This document shows, piece after piece, positions 4,371 to 54,112 of a DNA stretch of 64,000 bases; the stretch's first letter is position 1, and the number at the start of each line of letters is the position of its first letter. The notes beneath the pieces were generated by a model. That model searched no databases. It had not been told where the DNA came from and saw nothing but the letters and a program-made list of their open reading frames with translations. The position numbers and the translations under genes are program-made. The stretch comes from Molossus alvarezi (Eukaryota; Chordata; Mammalia; Chiroptera; Molossidae), in the NCBI GenBank assembly GCA_037176705.1, contig CM073889.1, positions 58,521,596 to 58,585,595 on the forward strand, in the 5' to 3' direction.

Positions 4371-7144
4371 ATAATGTTCCAAGTACCAACAGTAACATAC
4401 AAGTACTATGTATAAGATTCACAAACATGTTTAGTTGAAAATAATTTTCTTAGAGAGAAGGATGAAAGTGCCTCCTTTAACCAGTGAGAGAGGGGCATTT
4501 GACAGGGCATTGCCTGAGATGGTCAAGGAAGACCTTTAACTCAGGTCTGGCCTTTAGTTTTCAGTTGACCAGCAGGGAGAACCCAGCCTCATGTGTCTAA
4601 TGGAATGTGTGGAACATACCTTCCTTTCTGCTGAGGTTGAGTCCAACAAAGTAAGTCCCAAAGCAAAATAATGGTGTGTCTCTGTTTACCCTAGAGATGT
4701 CCCTGATCCTTCACCTGCTCTATGTCCCATCACTAGGACTCAAGCCATGGTTTCCTGCTTCGTCCAACCCATGGTGGGTGCCAGCAGGAGGTCAGAGGGA
4801 GTGGGCCTCCTGTGGGGTTTCCCAGACCCAATGGAGTCTACAGTCCTCAGATAGCCCCTCTTTCACAGCTGCAGTTACCCCCTGCCCTCCAACTCCAGGT
4901 GCTATTAGTGCCCCATTATGACTTTTCCCATTGTGACCTTCCATCCCTTCAGCATGCCTTGCCTTCATGAGGGGTCTCCTCCTGGCACCTGGAGTGGGTG
5001 CCTTGTGATTTCTGCCAGAGCCTGACTGATAGAGGGTGAGTGCCCTTGGCTCCATGGTGCTCCCTGTCAGGAAGCCCTCTACTGTGAGCTCTGGCCTCTG
5101 CTCTTTCACACGTGAAGTTGTTCGGTATTATTCACAATGTGGAGGAGAGGGATTCCTTAATCCATTGACGCTGCAGAGCAGTTTAAGAGGAGTCTGAGGA
5201 GGACCTGTCAGCCAGCTTCCCAGTACCTCTCTCAGTGTTTAGGCCCCCCAAGGTTCCTGAGGGCAACCTCAGACAATGGAGAGGTCTTTGATGTTTGAAA
5301 TACTAGGCTCTTTACACCAATCACCCTTGCTACTTGCATAAAATAATGCAGTAGCAAACCCTGAAATGCAAATTGCGTCTCCTAGATCTGCAAACACAGA
5401 TGGGATGAAATGTGCTGACTATTACCAGACCCACAGCTGGGCCCTGCATCTGTAACCTCACCTACTCTTCAGATGACCCTAGCAAGCAGGTGCTGCTAGA
5501 GTTCCCAGTTTACAGCTGGAAACAATGAGGACCCCTCAGAGAGGGCCAGGAGGTGCCTAGGGGGTAGCAAGAGTTTTGGGCACTCACCAACTCTCGGTGG
5601 CTGAGCCCCTTTGCCTCTGTGAACCAAGTCTGAACTGGTGGCCACAGCTGTGCCTCCATCACCCCAGACTGCTTTCACAACACCTGCCTTGGCTGCCATC
5701 GTCTGTTCAGACATTCCTGGCTCCTCCCCACACCCACTCCTGCTAGCTTCTTGAATCACCACCATGCAAGGATAGAGCAGCCAAGTGCAAAGATGACCCA
5801 CCTGTTTCTTCTTACCTCAGAAAACACGTGCGGCATATTTCAACCCTTTCAAGTGCCATCTAACTCTAGTGTGTTGGAAAAAGAGATGTAACTCCTCCCT
5901 TCTCACACAGTTGGCTGTCTCTGCAGCTGGGACACTGGTCTCATCACCACCCTTTTGAGGAGGCAAGGTCTCGGGACCACCATACTCCCCACAGAGGATA
6001 CAACCTGTGGCCCAGGGCCTCACCAAGCACTGTGAACATAGACCCGAGTTTTGAGTCCATAAGAGGACTTCACACAAGGAAAATGTCAATAATATCAAAT
6101 GTCCCTGCTTCTGCAGTCACAACCAGACTGCAGGTTAGGAGGAGTTCTCTCACTGGCTCCAGCTTGCTGCCTGTGTGGTCTCCTTCACTGCAAATACAGT
6201 CCTACCTTCAAAGTTGAACTTGGATTTCTGGTTTAACAATATGAAGTTTGAGCTGTCTCTTTAATGGACTCTCAGGCCCCAGATTAGAATTTTGGGCAGG
6301 AGTCTAAGTGTGACTACATTTCTGGCAGCTTTTTAGGTGGGGGGCGGACAGGAGGGTTGAATTCTCTCTTGGTCTTCTCAAAACAAACCTCATAACCCAG
6401 GCAAAGTCTTGGCTCACAATCGTAATGTCAGGGGAAAATATTGAAAGGAAAAATTACTGAACAGGACAAAGAGGGTTTTGACCACACTAGAAATGTAAAT
6501 TCTGGAAACTCTTTGCATCTGTATGGGATATGAAGCTTCAGAAACTCTGAGGGCACATGTGGTTTCAGCTCCTACAAACCCAGTTCATCCTGCCAGTCAA
6601 AATGCACCTTACCAGAAAGCATGGGCTTCCTGAGCCATTGGGATGCCCATCTCTGGACGTTCAAAATCTCAAAGGGCTGTGAAGTCCCAAAAGGAAATTA
6701 TTAACTCTCCTGGGAGTACACTGATGCTCTTCCCTCTAACTACCACACAATGGCACCAGGGAGCCAGCTCCACCACTGTAGAAAAGGGCTAGCTAGGTAA
6801 GGCTTTGGCTGTCACAGGAGCTCCAAGTAAGAGCTGTGACTCACACAGTTGGCTGGCATTAGCCTTAGGGAAGGACACTACTCAGTCCCAGCACTGCTTC
6901 ACTTTTTTTGTCCTTGAATCCATTTGGGAGTCAGGTAAAATTCTTTATAAATCAAGGGTCTCAAACTTGGATGCCTTTGGGACCAGGTGCTAACACAGAC
7001 TCAGAAAAACCTAGCCTATGCAAAGGGCACCCAGGCAAGGAGGCAGGCTCTACTCACCGTCCACTGTTGCCACCTGGTAATGTGGGCACTTTGGGGGCCA
7101 GACATTCCAAATAGTTTAGAGAAAAGGAATTCATGTTTCTATGT
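4371..7144. other. 2.8 kb of unassigned non-coding DNA
   Basis: This is the longest repeat-poor stretch in the first third of the window, with a rather even base composition. Frames at 4676-4921 (+), 4792-5109 (-), 5496-5801 (-) and 5817-6098 (-) overlap one another, lack recognisable domains and lack clear splice context. I see no gene here but cannot exclude a regulatory or lncRNA function. Confidence 0.45.
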
Positions 7145-47219: not shown

Positions 47220-47417
47220 GGTGTGGCAAAGTCAGCTGTTCTGTTGGTAAAAAAAAAGTTTCAATTTGTCCCAGAATCCAGAGTCATAAAATGTACATAA
47301 TCTTCAGTAGTTCCACCCCTGTGAGTTTCACTATAGGTTCAGCATTGAATTACATTACAAAAGCCAAATGCAGGGTTGCTGCATTGCCTAAGGGGCTGCA
47401 CCTGGCTTGCCTTCTCA
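47220..47417 (-). repeat. 3' LTR of the provirus, diverged
   Basis: The first 60 to 70 bases ('tgagaaggcaagccaggtgc', 'ggcttttgtaat') match the 5' LTR well. Further on the match is weaker. I align 'cagaatccagagtcataaaa' and 'gtgtggcaaagtcagc' with the 5' LTR on the plus strand, with a deletion of roughly 90 bases. The left border is approximate. Confidence 0.6.
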
Positions 47418-47429
47418 TTCCCCCTCTTG
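47418..47429 (-). other. Polypurine tract of the provirus
   Basis: 'caagagggggaa' directly precedes the 3' LTR start 'tgagaaggc'. A purine run at this exact place primes plus-strand DNA synthesis in retroviruses. It confirms the LTR border. Confidence 0.82.
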
Positions 47430-47599
47430 ATTCTCAAGCTGCTCCTATCGGACTTAGGAAACATCTTGGACAGGGAGTTCCCTTAGTGTTGGGTGAGAAA
47501 GGGAAATGATAATCGCTCTGACTGCTTTCTGATGAAATAGGGGCATTGGAGGGGAGGGAACTGGAGTTCTTCACTGTCCAGAGGAGAGTAGTAGGGGGT

Positions 47600-47960
47600 C
47601 CTTATTTGAAGCATCATTTGGAACTTTATTGTTTCTAAGCAAGAGGAAATAAAATAGGTTAGCATGTTGAAAATACAAGAGCCAAACAGGAGTGACATAA
47701 AAATCATTGAGAGGACCAGCTAATGGGAGTACCCAAGATGTCCAGTACTCATTTCTTTAACTGCTGGGCCATGTCTCTATTTCTGACTGATTAACATAAA
47801 AGCAACATTGCTGGCTCAAGAAAAGGCATATTCCTCCCTTTTCAGCAATTAGTAGGTCTAACCCTCTTCTATTTTGTAATACTACTGCTACTAAGGAGTC
47901 TCTTGATTCTGTAAGGCTATAAGGATAGAGAGTCTAGTGCTGGGATCAGTCCAGCAGGTG
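47600..47960 (-). pseudogene. Retroviral env transmembrane-subunit remnant
   Basis: The minus strand at 47,784-47,879 reads '[10 protein letters not shown]' followed by a CX6CC motif ('CLFLSQQCC'). These two features mark the transmembrane subunit of gammaretrovirus-type envelopes, where the second binds the surface subunit. A hydrophobic anchor and tail follow ('LLFGSCIFNMLTYFISS', about 47,690). The surface subunit is absent; the sequence passes from the pol end to this piece within a few hundred bases. It is broken and cannot make an envelope. Confidence 0.8.
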
Positions 47961-48117
47961 ATGACCCTCGATTCTACTGCTGAAGTCCTTAGGTGCTTTC
48001 TGTAGATCGATCAGCAGGTTTCACTGTCCTGTTAAGGGTGACCTGCAGAGGATTGTTCTGGCTGTTGGTCACTCTCCAGGAAGGATGCTTGTTGTGTAGG
48101 TGAGCTGCCTTCACCTA

Positions 48118-49503
48118 TTAGTGGTGGATCCAGGTATTCAGACCTGAAACTTTGAGAGCTGTAGGAGTGGTTAGCATTACTAAATAGCGCTCTTTCCAGG
48201 TTGGTTGGAGGGGTTCCCTTTTCCAATCCTTTATCCAGACTTTGTCCCCTGGTCTGTGGGGGTGTATAATTATTCCCAGGGAAATGGGTATTCTATCAGT
48301 TACCCACTTATGTACCTCAAGAATGGTTTTACTTAGTCCTTGTAGTTGGTTTTGGATTTCCAAATTTCCCAGTTCTTCTATGTCCTCATTGAATCTGATT
48401 AGTGTGGGAGGTCTTCTGTATAAGATTTCAAAACAGGAGAACCCTATCTTTGCCCAAGGGATACCACAGACTTGCAGAAAAGCTAGGGGAAGTATATCAG
48501 TACAGGGCAGGTTGGTTTAAGGGTCCAATTCATGCACTCTACTTTCCCTGAGCTCTGGGGCCAGTGGGCTGTGTGCAAATTCCATTCGACACCTAGAGTT
48601 TTAGCTACCTGCTGCACTATTTCTGCTACAAAGGCTGGGCCATTGTCTGATCCTATAGTCAATGACATTCCATATCTCGGGATGATGTCTCTCAGTAGAG
48701 GTTTGGTTACTTCTCTTACCTTTTTTGTACATGTGGGGTAAGCTTCAACCCAGCCTGAGAAAGTACAGATAAAAACCAGGAGATATTTACTTCCTCTGGA
48801 TCCTATTTTTGAGAACTCTACCTCTAGATCTTCAAAGGGTGCTTGGCCACAGTGCTGGATTCCAGCGGGCCCAGTGGGGCCTTGTCTGGTGTTATTAGGA
48901 GCACAGAGGAGACAGCATTGGGAGACTGAGGCACAGAGAGATGGAAGTCAAACAATCAAGTAGTACCAGCTTAATAAAGCTCCTAGGGCAGTTTTTCTCA
49001 GATGAGTGAGTTCATGTTTTTGGAGGACTACCTGATGGGCTAATTGTTCTGGCACATAGATTCTGTGGTTTGGGAGGATCCACAATCCTTCCTTCCTTAT
49101 ATTCCCTTCATCCTGTTGTGCCCATTCTTCTTCCTGGGCCATGTATTTTGGGGTTGCAGGTAGTTCTGGAGCCAGCATGATTTTTGATGGAGCCATCTGT
49201 TCTCTTGCAGCTTGTTTAGCTACAGTATCTGCTCAACGGTTTTCTTCTGACACTGAGTCTCTTCCCTTTTGGTGTCCCTCATAGTGGATGGCTGCTATCT
49301 CTCTTGGTGCCCAGACCACCTCCAACAATTTTAAGATTTCACCTTGGTTTTTTATTTCTTCCCCCCTGCAATAAGGAGCCCTCTTTTCTTGTATATAGCC
49401 CTATTTATATGTAGGGTGGTAAAGGCATAGTGAGAGTCAGTACATACGTTGGCCCCTTATCCTTGCTGAGTTCTAATGCCCTCACCAGGGCCCATAGTTC
49501 TGT
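48118..49503 (-). pseudogene. Retroviral pol remnant (RNase H and integrase)
   Basis: RNase H begins right after ADAMTS4 with 'TELWALVRALELSKDKG' and keeps the same reading frame across the joint (49,501-49,506). The integrase zinc-binding part follows (49,196-48,948, 'HELTHLRKTALG'), then the core (48,483-48,900) with 'GSDNGPAFVAE' and 'SGKVECMNWTL' carrying the second and third acidic residues. The first acidic position reads 'ICTFSGW' and is not Asp. The C-terminal domain ends near 48,118 with 'GDKVWIKDWKREPLQPTW'. Many stops and shifts interrupt it. Integrase would join viral DNA to the host chromosome. Confidence 0.87.
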
Positions 49504-50521
49504 GTCATAGTCTTTGCCAGGGAAAATCACAGGCAGGTGCAAGGGAACCTCTGGCTTGCCTAAAAGACAGTGCCCATAGCCATTGTCCAGGAAGTCCTTG
49601 ATGAAGCAGGCACTTCAGGGGGACCAGGGCTCCTTGGAATCCATGTGAGCCATTATAGGAGCCATGTCATGACGAGGTTCATCCCAGGCCTGTTCAGACC
49701 AGGCACAGCTCTGAGCTGGGTCACACATAGTGCCCATGTCGGCCATGCCCAGGGTGTCACAGGTAGAGACCCCACACAGGTCCTGATGGGTAAACAGCAA
49801 AGTGATCTGAGTCCGAGTCCTCAGAGGTGTTGAGTCCCCGCTGCCAAGCACATAAGCTGTGCAGGGTCTGGGCAGCACTGAGTCCCACCTGGGGCCCTTC
49901 CTCTCCAGGTCCTAGCACCACTAGCCATGTCACCACCAAGCTGACAGGGTTGGGAATGCTCAGATGCTTGAGGCCTTGGCTGCAGCCACCATGAGTGTGA
50001 GCAAGTAGCGCTTCAGCCTTGCACTGTGAAATGCTATCATCTTGTCATCTGCCACCAACAGGGGCTCCACGAATCTACTAAGGGAAGCAAAGCACTTGGC
50101 TCTTTGTGGGCTGGGCATGGGGTTCCCAGGAGGAGTCTTGATGCTACACATGCGGCCCTGGCCACTGGTGGGGCTCTTCTGGCACAGGATTGAGCCCCAG
50201 GTCCCCATGCAGAGTTAGGAGTTCCTCCCTCATCCCAGGGCAGAGATGCCACCAACTCTGGATCTCCATTGAGGTAGATGGTTCCAGTGAGGTAGATGCC
50301 CAGCTCCACCCCACTCAGCAGCTCAGGTGCCTGGCCCAGGTACTGCACTATCAGCCCCTCAACCCGCACACTTGAGTCTTGCTCCAGCTCTTGCAGCAGT
50401 GTCTCTCCAAAGGCCAACAGTACCACAGCCTAGCAGGATTGTCCAAACCAGACAGGATGCTGCCTCTGAGTTTCTCGGGAAACACCATCTCCTCCTCCTG
50501 GGGGGAGGGGGCTGGCCAGCC
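49504..50521 (-). pseudogene. ADAMTS4: ADAMTS4 fragment: prodomain and part of the catalytic domain
   Basis: In order on the minus strand: '[18 protein letters not shown]', '[19 protein letters not shown]', 'VQYLGQAPELLSGVELGIY' (prodomain), 'RAKCFASLSRFVEPLLVADD' (the furin site would end RAKR but reads RAKC), 'CAWQRGLNTSEDSDSDHF', 'LCGVSTCDTLGMADMGTMCD', and 'FLDNGYGHCLLGKPEVPLHL'. The sequence ends at 'FPGKDYD', near the boundary with the disintegrin-like domain, and joins retroviral RNase H. No introns are present, so it came from mRNA. Two deletions are seen: about 19 residues of prodomain near 50.22 kb and about 35 residues near 49.70 kb, which removes the HExxH zinc-binding site. Frameshifts and stops are present. 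Not functional. Confidence 0.92.
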
Positions 50522-50950
50522 TGCCACAATCAGGTCAATTTGCTTTGAAAGGTGAGCTACCGGTCTCTGCCAAGGTCCAAATTCCTTGGTTAGGACTCCC
50601 AGTAACATCCAGGAGTCCCAAGGCTGGTGTCTCTATGAGCTTGGTAAATGCTTTCTTAATCACGGTCCCAGACAATGGGCACCTATTCTTCTCCTTTCAG
50701 GGCCTTATATAAGGGTTTTGCCAGTTCTGAAAATCTGGGCATCCATATTCGACAGAACCCTGCTGCTCCCAGGAATTCTCGACTTTGTCGATGGAAGAGG
50801 GAACTGGAATAGCACAGACTACCTGTTTCCTTTCGGCCCCTAACACTTGTTTGCCTTGGGTGATCTTGAAACCTAAGTCTGGCTGGTAGCGGCTTGGTGA
50901 AGCAGAAGTTCCCAGTTTTCCTTCTGGCAGTTAGGGCACTCATTTTTCCA
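50511..50950 (-). pseudogene. Retroviral pol remnant (reverse transcriptase C-terminal part)
   Basis: The minus strand begins with '[10 protein letters not shown]', which resembles a nucleocapsid zinc-knuckle piece. It then gives reverse transcriptase connection-domain sequence: '[11 protein letters not shown]' (about 50.70 kb), and '[20 protein letters not shown]' (50,599-50,540). Reverse transcriptase copies viral RNA to DNA. The catalytic core is not present. The end 'IVAGWP' joins ADAMTS4 sequence in one open frame (50,351-50,608). A GGCTGGCCAGCC stretch at 50,510-50,521 is compatible with both partners, so the exact joint cannot be placed within it. Confidence 0.8.
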
Positions 50951-51072
50951 CCTCTTGCATGCCCCCCACTGAGGACTGGGACCACAGCCTAGGCATGTGC
51001 CCTGAATGGGAATCAAACATGGACCTGCAGTCCATGGGGAGATGCTCAATCCATTGAGCCACACCAGTCAGG
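50951..51072 (-). mobile_element. 3'-truncated VES SINE between ADAMTS4 and reverse transcriptase
   Basis: The minus strand reads 'tgactggtgtggctcaatgg', then 'gtttgattcccattcagggc', and breaks off after 'gggggcatgcaagagg'. It lacks the CT-rich part and A tail. SINEs normally keep their 3' end, so this loss marks a later breakpoint or deletion. Confidence 0.85.
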
Positions 51073-51610
51073 CTGAGCGGAGGAAGAAGGCCAGCAGCAG
51101 CAGGGGCAGCCACAGCAACCCAGGAAAAGTCATAGTGGGGAGCAGCGGGTGGGGTTAGGCTCTCCTCAGCCAGCTGCCCATTCAGCCCCTCCTGGGATGT
51201 GGGTCTGGCTGGGACATGCAGGGTGCTAAGGCTGGGAGGAACTGAGGCTGTCTGGGCATCGCATCCTTCACACGCTGGCTTTGTGGAAAGCTCCCCTCTG
51301 CAGCCTGGTGCTCAGACTAGCTCCAGGGTCAGAGGCAGAGTTTTAGAGGGGCTGGGGACCTTCCAACAAGATGGAGAAAACTTGACCCTTGGCTTGGGAG
51401 AGGTGCCTAGTGGCCCAGCTCCTGCAAACCCTCCTCTTCTGTGTCTTTTGTCTCTCCCTGCCTCTGTCTCCTGCAGCTTCTCTGGCCTCTCTCTGTCCAC
51501 ACTAAACTCTGGCTTCACCTCTTTGCCTTTGCCTGTCTCTCTTCTGCCCTCTCCCATCTCTGTGTCTGCGGGTCTCGCTGAGGGTTCCTCATCAAGTAAG
51601 GCCTCTCATG
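51071..51610 (-). pseudogene. ADAMTS4: ADAMTS4 fragment: 5' leader, start codon and signal peptide
   Basis: ADAMTS4 is aggrecanase-1, a secreted zinc metalloprotease that cuts aggrecan. Here the start ATG lies at 51,217 on the minus strand ('gcatgtcccagccagaccca'). The next 146 bases match the ADAMTS4 signal peptide region, with the leucine-rich run 'LLWLPLLLLAFFLRSA'. GA-rich sequence upstream (to about 51.6 kb) looks like its 5' leader. The block stops at 'cgctcagcc' where a truncated SINE begins. The coding continuation appears 550 bases further on. Stops interrupt the frame. The upstream limit with gag is not exact. Confidence 0.78.
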
Positions 51611-52567
51611 CCCAGGCTTCTATGTCTAGATGTCCAGTTGGTCCCTGGGTCTGGAGCCACTTTCTGGCTTCCGTGACAATCTGCTACAGTCAACCCAGGT
51701 AGGGTGATGAGTCTAGAAGACTGCTCCCCCCTCTTGTAGGGTCCCATCAAGAACCATTATCTGTGGACCCCTTGTCTCCTGCAGTGGTAATTGCATTGCT
51801 GCTGGGGGTTTTGGTTCCTGGGTCACTGACCTGACACATCTTTCCACTGGATTCAGTGACCCTGGCTTTGGCGACACGTTGGCCAGTTGTGGGGGTGAGA
51901 CAGATGGAGGTGGGCTGTCAGGCAGGTGAGGTTCCCTATCCTTAGGTAATGGGGCATATGGTGGTGACAGTGGAGGGGTCTCTTCTGAATCCTCTTGTAA
52001 TAGGAGGCCGCTTAATTTGCCATGAAGTCTTTCTTTTACCTTGTGCCACAAGGACCTTGCACTGTCCCTGACTAGTAGCACAGAATCAGACCCAAGCAGA
52101 CCTGATTGGGCTATCTCCAACCACTGGTCTATGTAGGGAAATTGGTGGGATGGCCGAAGTCTCCAGTGACTGCCCTATACATGGCCAGGACTGTGGGGGC
52201 ATCAATGGTGACTTCAGAGGGCTATTCCACACCAAAGGTGGGCCATTCTAATTCACAGAGGGTGTGCAATTTTTCGGGGGTCAATTTGACCCCATAATCT
52301 CCTGAGAACTGCTTTATAAAATTCTTTTTTTTTTTTATTCCTCACCCAAGGATACTTTTCTATTTATCATCAGACTTGTTGCCTCCCACACCACCTGACC
52401 AGGGCTGGGGATGAACCACAACGGAGCTACGTGTTCTTGGCTGGAATTGAAACTGTGACTCATTGGTCTGCAGGCCAACGCTTTAACCACTGAGCAAAAC
52501 TGACCAGGGATATAAAATTATTTATTACAGATTCCAGAACAGTGGGTTTAGAGGAACTTTCCCCCAT
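51610..52567 (-). pseudogene. Retroviral gag remnant
   Basis: Gag is the structural polyprotein of the virion. The start is set by 'MGESSS' at 52,567, which carries the N-terminal glycine expected for myristoylation of the matrix protein. Matrix-like text continues beyond an inserted SINE ('LTPEKLHTLCELEWPTFGV'). A proline-rich part follows (51,713-52,120) with 'PPYAPLP', a PPxY-type late-budding motif. A short capsid-like stretch reaches about 51.61 kb. Most of capsid and nucleocapsid is absent; ADAMTS4 5' leader sequence takes their place. Stops and shifts break the frame. Confidence 0.78.
52325..52510 (-). mobile_element. VES-type SINE inserted in gag
   Basis: An antisense SINE: the T-run at 52,325-52,338 is its tail, 'ggaattgaaactgtgactca' its B-box side and 'gagcaaaactgaccaggg' its head. 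'tataaaattc' and 'tataaaatta' on the two sides are the duplication. It splits the matrix region and came after the provirus. Confidence 0.88.
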
Positions 52568-53189
52568 AATGATATCTAAGATGGTCAAGCAAACCTCCCA
52601 GTAAATGAGACAAGCAGGAGGAATACTCTTCTTTCATCTACCGGGCTGCTCCTCTCATGGGGATTTAGGCACCTCTTGGCATGGCAGGTCAGTATGAGCC
52701 CCTGATTCAGATCAGGTTTGCAGGTGGAGACAAATGCCCCCAAGAACCTGTACTGCCCTTAGCCCTATGGGGTCACCATGGATGTGCAGGTTGGAACTCA
52801 TGCAGGCTCCATAATAGGCATTGTGGAGCATGGTCACTCACACACACAATCACACAGAATTTAAACTTCCACTCAGGAATTCCTATTCTGTGCAGCATCT
52901 TTGCTGCTTGGGAGGTGATCAAGCTCCCCTTCCACCTTAGAGGTAGGCCTGAATTTGGTCCTGGGTCTCCGAAGACACTTACCAATCTGACGTACTAGCA
53001 GACTTTTCTATCCTCCCTGGAATCTGTTGGAGCACAGCAGTGGCTGACTACAGTCAGACCCAGTTAGGGTCAGAGTCTAGTAAAATCACCAGTGGCACAC
53101 TTTTCTTTCCATTGTAGGGGCCCAAAATTAGTGGCTCCTTCCCACTGGCATCCAACAATGGTGACTCAAGGGGCCAGCACAGCTGTCAG

Positions 53190-53211
53190 CTTCCCAGCCA
53201 ACACACCAAAA
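53190..53211 (-). other. Probable primer-binding site
   Basis: Directly after the LTR end the minus strand reads 'ttttggtgtgttggctggga'. The start TGGTG at the expected place fits a tRNA primer site. The tRNA cannot be assigned safely because several positions have decayed; a histidine-type site is one option. Confidence 0.5.
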
Positions 53212-53496
53212 TGTTGTGGCAGAAATTTGGTCAGCAGGAAGAGACAGGCTACATGCACTCGGAGGATTAGAAAAGGACTGTTTAATATGCATTGGTGCTG
53301 TCCCAGCGAAGTCATCTCCAAAGGCTGAGCCCTGACCCCAGGTTCCAGTTGCATTTTATACATGATAAGCCTCCAGGTATTTGGGGGCCTTCTAATTCTA
53401 CTGTAGTTTAGGTGGTTGGTGGATGTACCAAAATTACAAAAGCCAAGGGTGGGGTCTCTGCACTGCCTAAAGGGCTGCACTTGGCTTGCCTTCTCA
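53212..53496 (-). repeat. 5' LTR of the provirus
   Basis: On the minus strand it starts 'tgagaaggcaagccaag' and ends 'ctgccacaaca', so it has the expected TG...CA ends. It contains a TATA-like 'gtataaaatgc' (about 53,352-53,362) and an ATTAAA polyadenylation-like hexamer (53,281-53,286). Length is about 285 bases. Confidence 0.75.
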
Positions 53497-53620
53497 GAAC
53501 TACCTGTTTTGGCCCTGCTGTGTTTTGAGTGTTTGTGTGTACACAATGTCCTCAAAAAAAATAAATAAATAAAAAGGCAATAATGTCAAAATTTGACAAC
53601 AAAGGATTGGCTTAACAGTA
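53497..53620. other. Provirus flank with an A-rich run
   Basis: Host DNA between the LTR and the mariner-type element, with 'aaaaaaaataaataaataaa' at 53,554-53,573. No gene seen. Confidence 0.5.
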
Positions 53621-53932
53621 CAGTGATACCTCGGTTCTCGAACGCCTCGGTTTTCGACCAAATCGGTATTCGACCAGGAGATTCGAGAAAATTTGTCTCG
53701 GAATCCGAACAAATATTTGGAACTCGAACTTCCGAGATGAGCCGAGTTGAGCCGAATGGCGTTCATTCGGCCCAGCGCGCCTTGCTGGCGTCATCAGTGT
53801 GCGTGCAGAGAGAGAGTCACGCTTTGTGGAGTCACGCTTTCCTATTGGGTTTCATTGCTTCGGTTCTCGAACAAATTCGGTTCTCGACCGTCCTCCTGGA
53901 ACGAATTATGTTCGAGAACCGAGGTATCACTG
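53621..53932. mobile_element. Mariner-type non-autonomous DNA transposon (MITE)
   Basis: This 312-bp element has perfect 23-bp terminal inverted repeats (53,621-53,643 and 53,910-53,932; first bases 'cagtgatacctcggttctcg') and is flanked by TA on both sides (53,619-53,620 and 53,933-53,934). TA duplication and CAGT ends fit Tc1/mariner. Variants of 'cggttctcgaac' recur inside near both ends ('cggttttcgaccaaatcgg', 'ttcggttctcgaacaaattc'). CpG sites are well kept, so it is young. There is no transposase gene; frames across it are chance. Confidence 0.92.
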
Positions 53933-54112
53933 TATTATTTATGCAAAATTATTTTATAAACATCAGAAATAATCCTGGGGCCTATGTAGCAACATGGGTG
54001 TGTTGACCAGGTGTTTAAGAGTGGCCAACCTGACCCTCAACTGACCTCATGCCATGAGTACAGTTACAGCAAAACATGAATCAGCGCATGGTTGAAGCCT
54101 CCTAAAGAACAA

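Follow-up and report, generated by a model that had tools for sequence, protein, structure and literature searches.

A gammaretrovirus-like provirus family carrying spliced ADAMTS4 sequence in the genome of Molossus alvarezi

Introduction

Retroviral gene capture is best known from laboratory isolates. A human ERV is said to have transduced FAM8A1, so that the host gene was amplified inside an ERV family, as is the case here. Among crocodilian ERVs, according to PMC4299795, KIT-ligand was captured by CrocERV29 and nectin3 by CrocERV31; in the nectin3 lineage the host mRNA replaces env, and the authors think that it spread by retrotransposition. ERV-Hako carries 3'-UTR pieces of SUSD6 or SPHKAP, as described in PMC11905727.

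In the present work we analyzed a 64,000-nucleotide stretch of the bat Molossus alvarezi genome, hereafter the window, in which a provirus contains sequence of the host metalloprotease gene ADAMTS4. The study covered this one genome and 26 loci, window included; since these loci were picked by hand, the shares of the different forms among them do not represent a census.

Results

Structure of the window provirus

The whole element lies on the minus strand. The 5' LTR (TGAGA...CAACA, 53212..53496), whose sequence also occurs at the ends of sister loci, is followed by the primer-binding-site region (53190..53211), read as TTTTGGTGTGTTGGCTGGGAA, which we take to resemble tRNA-Gly. The leader and the 5' portion of gag, as far as the capsid (p30) region (51590..53189), matched the ADAMTS4-free loci L041 and L050, compared with which the window shows a loss near 51684-51714; a Pfam search of L050 returned Gag_p30 (PF02093, 1.6e-11) around the join site. 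A SINE is located within gag (52327..52513), with further partial matches at other loci, and was present in 12 of the 19 scorable loci.

ADAMTS4 block 1 (51064..51589), which includes the 5' UTR, start codon and signal peptide, meets a SINE-like repeat at its junction with reverse transcriptase (RT) (50880..51066, the far end placed by eye); the part from 51066 to 50951 also matched repeats elsewhere in L010, L018, L028 and L038. The RT thumb/connection piece (50510..50878), matching the ADAMTS4-free loci L037-L039, precedes ADAMTS4 block 2 (49499..50521), which extends from the prodomain to the start of the disintegrin domain and is joined at a shared GCAGA to the RNase H piece (49145..49502). 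The RNase_H domain itself was returned by Pfam in L030 (PF00075, 9.1e-19). The segment comprising integrase and a little beyond (48034..49144) matched PF00665 (integrase core, 3.3e-12) and PF18697 (MLV-type integrase C-terminus, 2.5e-18), both downstream of the RNase H joint, and position 49144 is also the point of exit from ADAMTS4 in long-form copies. An env remnant, by eye a putative TM-like tail, and the polypurine tract (47418..48033) aligned in sister loci. The 3' LTR is cut, its match to the 5' LTR (86%) being confined to the remaining start at 47354..47417.

An earlier note, made from the letters of the window alone, had described a provirus with LTRs, gag and pol on this strand, and the LTRs, gag matches and integrase domains bear this out. 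To its account have to be added the SINE-like repeat (51066-50951) that stands between block 1 and RT and the second SINE, in gag.

ADAMTS4 sequence inside the provirus

Spliced coordinates (m) were counted from the start of the host ADAMTS4 gene, L040. Block 1 aligned to the spliced host gene at m134-655 with 87% identity, and block 2 at m650-943, m997-1539 and m1617-1838 with 84-85%. Each of the five host introns (1032, 187, 519, 693 and 97 bp) is of the GT-AG type, and none is retained in the proviruses. The identity of the host gene was assessed on exon 2 (7.5e-64 against ADAMTS-4 and 4e-37 against ADAMTS-1) and exon 5 (1.5e-64 and 1.1e-31, respectively). The joint between ADAMTS4 and RNase H near 49502 was visible in a 69-residue piece, whose residues 1-39 matched the ADAMTS-4 chain 2rjp_A (E 4.7e-17), while no ADAMTS match covered the part past residue 39. 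Pfam searches with the broken ADAMTS4 pieces and host exon 1 returned nothing at the thresholds used, a PDB search with one broken block-2 piece gave no match, and neither scanning the host start for bacterial-type promoters nor a composition profile was informative.

Blocks 1 and 2 adjoin in the ADAMTS4 mRNA, ending at m655 and starting at m650 with an overlap of 6 nt. At three loci (L033, L034 and L035) ADAMTS4 lies unsplit between gag and pol, with neither RT nor SINE between the blocks, and L034 aligned to spliced ADAMTS4 m134-2145 in a single alignment. In the window and most of the studied loci ADAMTS4 is split by a SINE plus an RT piece. Since ADAMTS4 is uninterrupted in three loci and split by SINE and RT in others, the two blocks of the window represent one captured piece that was later broken. 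Three losses mark block 2 of the window: one of 60 bp, one of 11 bp that shifts the frame, and one of 87 bp or a little more that removed the zinc motif; exon skipping was rejected as the origin of the zinc-motif loss, because the 87-bp loss spans the exon 3/4 border.

The family across the genome

A search of this genome for loci with the same joins, as proposed in the earlier note, found dozens of them. ADAMTS4-derived DNA occurs at at least 89 places besides the host gene, and at every one of the 26 studied loci it adjoins gag, pol or both. Among the best 40 of 87 candidates, all 39 non-host matches, window included, begin at host 134-137 and none extends upstream of host 134. Similarly, among the best 40 of 43 candidates, all 39 non-host exon-6 matches share a common end and none continues past exon-6 position 102, nor was a 3' end with poly(A) found; this agrees with the missing poly(A) and ADAMTS4 3' end reported for the window, whose own form stops earlier, at m1838. 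The gag join was crossed by 38 of the best 40 of 153 matches.

An 11-bp frameshifting loss is shared by 23/23 copies covering the site, drawn from forms I, II and III (one further base is missing in L025), and a GAG-to-stop change by all six copies that keep the codon (TAA in L035, TAG in the others). As the 5' start, the exon-6 end and the 11-bp loss are common to the copies, the sequences point to a single ADAMTS4 capture from which the dozens of loci would descend; the repetition of the same joins at dozens of loci excludes chance.

In sister loci the LTRs are about 285 bp long, paired and bounded by TG...CA. Target duplications of 4 bp were exact in seven of the 15 loci with both outer ends readable (L010, L011, L014, L015, L017, L027 and L034), agreed in three of four letters in six (L009, L012, L023, L025, L026 and L033) and in two of four letters in the other two (L022 and L028). 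Paired LTRs and short target duplications, together with gag p30, RNase H and integrase, identify the element as a gammaretrovirus-like (class I) ERV. The intron-free cargo lies inside the LTRs and was propagated as a unit, as in defective retroviruses that transduce host mRNA, and cargo-free relatives occur in the same genome: L037 with L041, L038 with L050, and L039. A viral connection/RNase H query gave 42 matches, its own locus included, among the best 40 of 107 candidates; of these, L037-L039 were examined and were free of ADAMTS4 in the stretch read. The candidate cargo-free gag loci L042, L051 and L052 did not cover the join.

Joins and template switching

The earlier note had described two intron-free ADAMTS4 blocks, and the spliced-host alignment sustains that description except at one edge: block 1 starts at 51589 and not at 51610, as the 20 nt between these positions match gag of the ADAMTS4-free locus L050. 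Just inside 51589, over about the first 24 nt of block 1, gag resembles the ADAMTS4 5' UTR. The similarity is imperfect; 44 of 20,000 random pairs scored as high, for a stretch which, as in all these similarity tests, was selected with the sequences already in view. Of 8 letters compared at the exon-6 join, 7 are identical (14 of 20,000 random pairs), but a comparison of 24 letters gives only 8 identities (5,157 of 20,000). Short words common to both partners occur at the other joins.

Capture from mRNA is supported by the five missing introns and by the lack of anything beyond host 134 or exon-6 position 102 in those matches, and capture within a replicating retrovirus by the many LTR-bounded copies that have the same joins and 4-bp target duplications outside them. 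The similarity at the 5' join and the words shared at the other joins favour copy-choice, as the earlier note had proposed; judged from the ends of the insert, this reading is supported.

Age, decay and recombinant forms

LTR divergence (median K 0.173) suggests, at an assumed rate, an age of roughly 30-40 My. The trees are star-like, without well-supported forks, and presumably reflect a burst. Off-majority changes by codon position were 0.100, 0.084 and 0.098, which is best explained by neutral decay of the copies. Third-position K was 0.194 between host and copies vs 0.186 between copies, best explained by a capture soon before the burst. Fixed differences from the host were found at 26 of 408 third positions and 12 of 821 others; as changes that arose along the host lineage are among these, they do not allow pre-burst selection on the captured frame to be told apart. 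Four forms occur side by side, three of them recombinant and the fourth having ADAMTS4 in one uninterrupted block; L033, L012, L015 and L027 are among the loci whose marks are mixed.

Discussion

We consider it highly probable that a gammaretrovirus-like virus acquired spliced ADAMTS4 mRNA on a single occasion, through template switching, spread as a defective element and recombined with its relatives. A single spliced mRNA would have been captured in a virion. The captured piece, which begins near the 5' end of the mRNA and stops in exon 6, stands in place of the viral stretch between mid-capsid and the start of integrase, as shown by the anatomy, the missing introns and the common ends. The product lacked most viral enzymes and would therefore have spread as a defective, helper-dependent element, its own LTRs, primer site and packaging signal serving in cis and, judging from the missing genes, proteins provided in trans by ADAMTS4-free relatives. 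Recombination with relatives during the spread would have restored an RT piece, tagged by a SINE and placed inside ADAMTS4, and, in the lineage of the window, RNase H; the forms are seen and we infer their order. The earlier note had correctly seen block 2 flanked by RT and RNase H; this arrangement is most simply read as a later recombinant and not as the original captured form. The copies would afterwards have decayed neutrally. Because the common ancestor of the copies read already had a disrupted ADAMTS4 frame, an active protease is unlikely to have driven the burst.

A LINE might instead have made a full-length ADAMTS4 retrocopy that entered gag of a germline provirus, with later deletion of the 3' end, the poly(A) and the virus down to integrase, before the chimaera was amplified. 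Such a retrocopy would likewise start near the cap site, where the common 5' end lies with a TTAAAA box about 30 nt upstream, and the shared SINEs show the lineage to have been in the germline at some stage. The two ends of the insert lie in gag and in integrase, regions that do not adjoin in the viral genome, and a 3' target duplication could have been deleted. However, this route requires two events, its 5' join falls in a patch of gag/ADAMTS4 similarity for which an L1 insertion has no need, and neither a donor nor a remnant with exon-6 sequence past the common end was seen among the 39 non-host matches (best 40 of 43 candidates); we regard it as unlikely. Read-through from a provirus beside ADAMTS4, giving a chimeric RNA that underwent splicing and packaging so that template switching made the 3' join only, is the route of retroviral gene capture described in PMC4299795. 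The read-through RNA should bring promoter sequence from above exon 1, but none of the 39 non-host matches (best 40 of 87) extends there, and gag and ADAMTS4 are alike at the 5' join, so that this origin appears quite improbable. An assembly artefact or a segmental duplication of one odd locus is hardly conceivable: although two C19 loci 27 kb apart resemble a duplicated pair, the 89 or more places lie on many contigs at 72-95% identity to the queries, with their own target duplications where readable, and for the family as a whole the many contigs and separate duplications refute it.

Within the favoured capture by template switching, we tentatively propose that a free capped mRNA was captured without read-through: RT may have reached or neared its 5' end and switched to gag at a chance similarity, and stepwise 'healing' may then have added RT and later RNase H from helpers. 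If this is true, the successive steps of retroviral gene capture and recombination are all preserved in this genome. On this proposal the RT piece arrived headed by the SINE, and its source may have been an RNA that started there.

The family offers a natural capture fossilised in dozens of copies, together with cargo-free relatives, an unsplit form and three recombinant forms; as these stand side by side, they give direct access to the switch points and partly to the order of events. The family further indicates that wide retroviral amplification of a host gene is possible despite an already broken reading frame.

The kind of event is already known from crocodilian ERVs and ERV-Hako, while our literature searches found no report of ADAMTS4 capture, as the earlier note had supposed, or of such recombinant intermediates. 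As in acute transforming retroviruses (reviewed in PMC13297096), viral genes have given way to part of a host mRNA, and those viruses are usually defective and helper-dependent; in contrast to the v-onc carriers, the cargo here comes from the gene of a secreted protease, with its frame broken in every copy covering the 11-bp site. ERV-Hako similarly has one host-gene insert common to several copies, with insert-free relatives alongside, but, according to PMC11905727, it is a Group II element with a 3' UTR insert only, whereas 5' UTR and coding sequence are found here in a gammaretrovirus-like element. Crocodilian ERVs are alike in being multi-copy lineages with spliced host mRNA inside. In PMC4299795 their host-derived ORFs are under purifying selection per the authors and KIT-ligand came without loss of a viral domain, whereas the ADAMTS4 frame was already disrupted when the burst began and the cargo replaced the virus from capsid to RNase H. 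The ADAMTS4 family further differs from the crocodilian ERVs, as described there, in having recombinants with regained RT and RNase H.

Structure of the window provirus and origin of its ADAMTS4 sequence

The minus-strand provirus of the window, which lies on contig C12 (58521596-58585595) of the surveyed 2.5-Gb genome (G000), showed a 5' LTR at 53212-53496 and a remnant at 47417-47354, the sole recognisable part of the 3' LTR. Its integrase was verified by Pfam PF00665 and PF18697. The LTR-flanked provirus claimed in the earlier note is confirmed. At 49408-49614, residues 1-39 were ADAMTS-4 (2rjp_A, 4.7e-17) and were followed by non-ADAMTS protein sequence.

The host ADAMTS4 gene (L040) was located via exon-like matches on contig C47. 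Its six exons are separated by introns of 1032, 187, 519, 693 and 97 bp, all GT-AG. After splicing, the reading frame stays open as far as the stretch extends and has HELGH at residue 360, and exons 2 and 5 matched ADAMTS-4 (7.5e-64 and 1.5e-64 respectively). In spliced coordinates counted from the start of L040 (m), block 1 of the window corresponds to m134-655 and block 2 to m650-943, m997-1539 and m1617-1838, so that both pieces proposed as intron-free were recovered as such; another copy, L034, gave a single alignment over m134-2145 (84%). Because the blocks and L034 align to the intron-less host sequence, the captured source is a spliced ADAMTS4 mRNA.

A multi-copy family with common outer ends

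Searches of the genome returned 75 matches for block 2 (best 40 of 75 candidates scored), 40 for block 1 (best 40 of 95), 41 for the disintegrin/TSP1 piece (best 40 of 44), 40 for host exon 6 (best 40 of 43) and 40 for the host 5' end (best 40 of 87). Their union, excluding the host gene and merging neighbours within 5.5 kb, comprises at least 89 ADAMTS4-carrying places; 84 were obtained when the gag-join list (38 of 40 matches) replaced the exon-6 and host 5'-end lists. Among these best-scoring matches, contig C63 (150.9 Mb), which may be a sex chromosome, holds 27 of the 89 places vs 5.4 expected on length. Two copies on one strand of C19, 27 kb apart (98420301-98421885 and 98447679-98449263), look like a local duplication.

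The 26 loci studied, window included, comprised 20 top block-2 loci chosen by hand (about 10 kb each), three 7-kb loci added because two ADAMTS4 blocks stood side by side there, and two 3.5-kb pieces from a search (L030 and L032). All 20 loci of the first set aligned with the window on both the RT and the pol side of block 2, and each had at least one LTR match.

Every scored non-host match to the host 5' end (39/39, window included; best 40 of 87 candidates) began at host 134-137, and every scored non-host match to exon 6 (39/39; best 40 of 43 candidates) stopped at exon-6 position 94-102; the join between gag and ADAMTS4 was spanned by 38 of 40 matches (best 40 of 153 candidates). The sister loci sought after the earlier note were found in this genome, with outer ends in common, and its proposal of retroviral capture of a host mRNA is supported by the spliced source, these ends and the multi-copy, LTR-bearing family. 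The capture is real and well supported: ADAMTS4 mRNA was apparently captured once by a retrovirus, then amplified and reshuffled. Judging from a TTAAAA box at host 104, the ADAMTS4 cap would be expected near host 134.

Short similarities, each in a stretch chosen post hoc, were present at the joins. The gag join has an imperfect 24-nt gag/ADAMTS4 similarity whose score was reached by 44 of 20,000 random pairs; at the exon-6 join of ADAMTS4 to integrase, host ACACAGCC and virus ACACGGCC differ by one mismatch (14 of 20,000), a similarity that ceases to stand out when 24 letters are compared. At the join to RNase H, the five letters GCAGA are common to both sides (39 of 20,000).

Forms of the provirus and ADAMTS4-free relatives

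Form I consists of gag, unsplit ADAMTS4 and integrase, with ADAMTS4 reaching m2145 in L034 and m2150 in L035 and stopping at m1388 in L033. Form II (L012, L015, L018, L025, L026 and L028) has block 1, a SINE, RT, a long block 2 and integrase. Form III (15 loci including the window) is similar to form II, with ADAMTS4 ending at m1828-1838 and followed by RNase H; one member, L019, is without block 1. Form IV (L030 and L032) carries block 1, SINE, RT, connection and RNase H without block 2. In L034 the ADAMTS4 codons run through the split point as an open reading frame. Form I would have given rise to II and II to III, and form IV would derive from II and a helper; mixed marks in L033, L012, L015 and L027 are as recombination would give.

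ADAMTS4-free relatives were also present. L037, L038 and L039 run from RT through integrase, L038 having a SINE and another insert within RNase H; directly upstream of L038, L050 retains gag across the join position, inside p30 (PF02093, 1.6e-11). The connection/RNase H piece of L030 gave 42 matches, L037-L039 among them, at 82-94% identity apart from its own (best 40 of 107 candidates scored).

Coding capacity of the captured sequence

An 11-bp loss at m1433 occurs in 23/23 copies spanning the site (L033 has no coverage, and L025 misses one base more), and the frame breaks near residue 310. Twelve codons before HELGH, GAG is changed to a stop in all six copies retaining the codon (L034, L035, L044, L045, L046 and L049), which is gone in L043; L043-L049 were chosen for extra sequence at that stretch in the block-2 search. 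Since frameshift and stop are common to the copies that cover them, the cargo very likely could not encode an active protease before the burst. Of 23 scorable loci, 20 (all except L025, L034 and L035) have lost the zinc motif through a deletion of about 87 bp; a 60-bp loss is found in 14/20 loci and a gag SINE in 12/19. L025 and L034 have other deletions at the zinc-motif stretch, distinct from the common one, perhaps by chance or because the site is deletion-prone. In L028 (sense 5436-5879), a stretch of exon 4 (m1673-1727) forms about ten tandem repeats within the provirus; L047 and L048 show repeats of a comparable kind.

Integration and age

LTRs of the family have the ends TGAGA...CAACA, with a polypurine tract preceding the 3' LTR. 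Both outer ends were readable in 15 of 23 long loci, where 4-bp target duplications were exact in seven, agreed in three of four letters in six and in two of four in two; the other eight have a missing LTR end or a longer LTR variant. In L013, L020, L021 and L024 the 5' part of the LTR is apparently extended or duplicated, with GCCCCTGGCTTTTG or a near-identical sequence before the LTR, and their outer ends were therefore left unread. Window 53617-53936 holds a terminal-inverted-repeat element (TACAGTGATACCTCGG...) with TA at both ends, apparently a young Tc1/mariner-type DNA transposon; L018 carries a copy (99% identity over 316 bp).

K2P divergence between paired LTRs was 0.099-0.244 (median 0.173; 19 loci, excluding the window's 64-nt remnant at 0.160), and the median would place the family at 32-39 My under an assumed rate of 2.2-2.7e-9 substitutions per site per year. 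Trees for integrase and block 1 are star-like, and changes in the copies are even across codon positions. The third-position distance between host and copies (0.194) is close to that among copies (0.186), suggesting little time from capture to burst.

Comparison with known captures

No report of ADAMTS4 within a retrovirus was found in the titles and abstract openings of the mainly open-access literature searched. The one paper found with frequent mention of both ADAMTS4 and retrovirus terms, PMC12772286, deals with rectal cancer and an enhancer of HERV origin. PMC3187697 gives homologous recombination as at least 1000-fold more frequent than nonhomologous. Close precedents for host-gene capture by endogenous retroviruses are the crocodilian elements with captured KIT-ligand and nectin3 (PMC4299795) and ERV-Hako with host 3'-UTR pieces (PMC11905727). 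Capture of host mRNA by a retrovirus is already known as a kind, of which the ADAMTS4 family is an unusually complete case.
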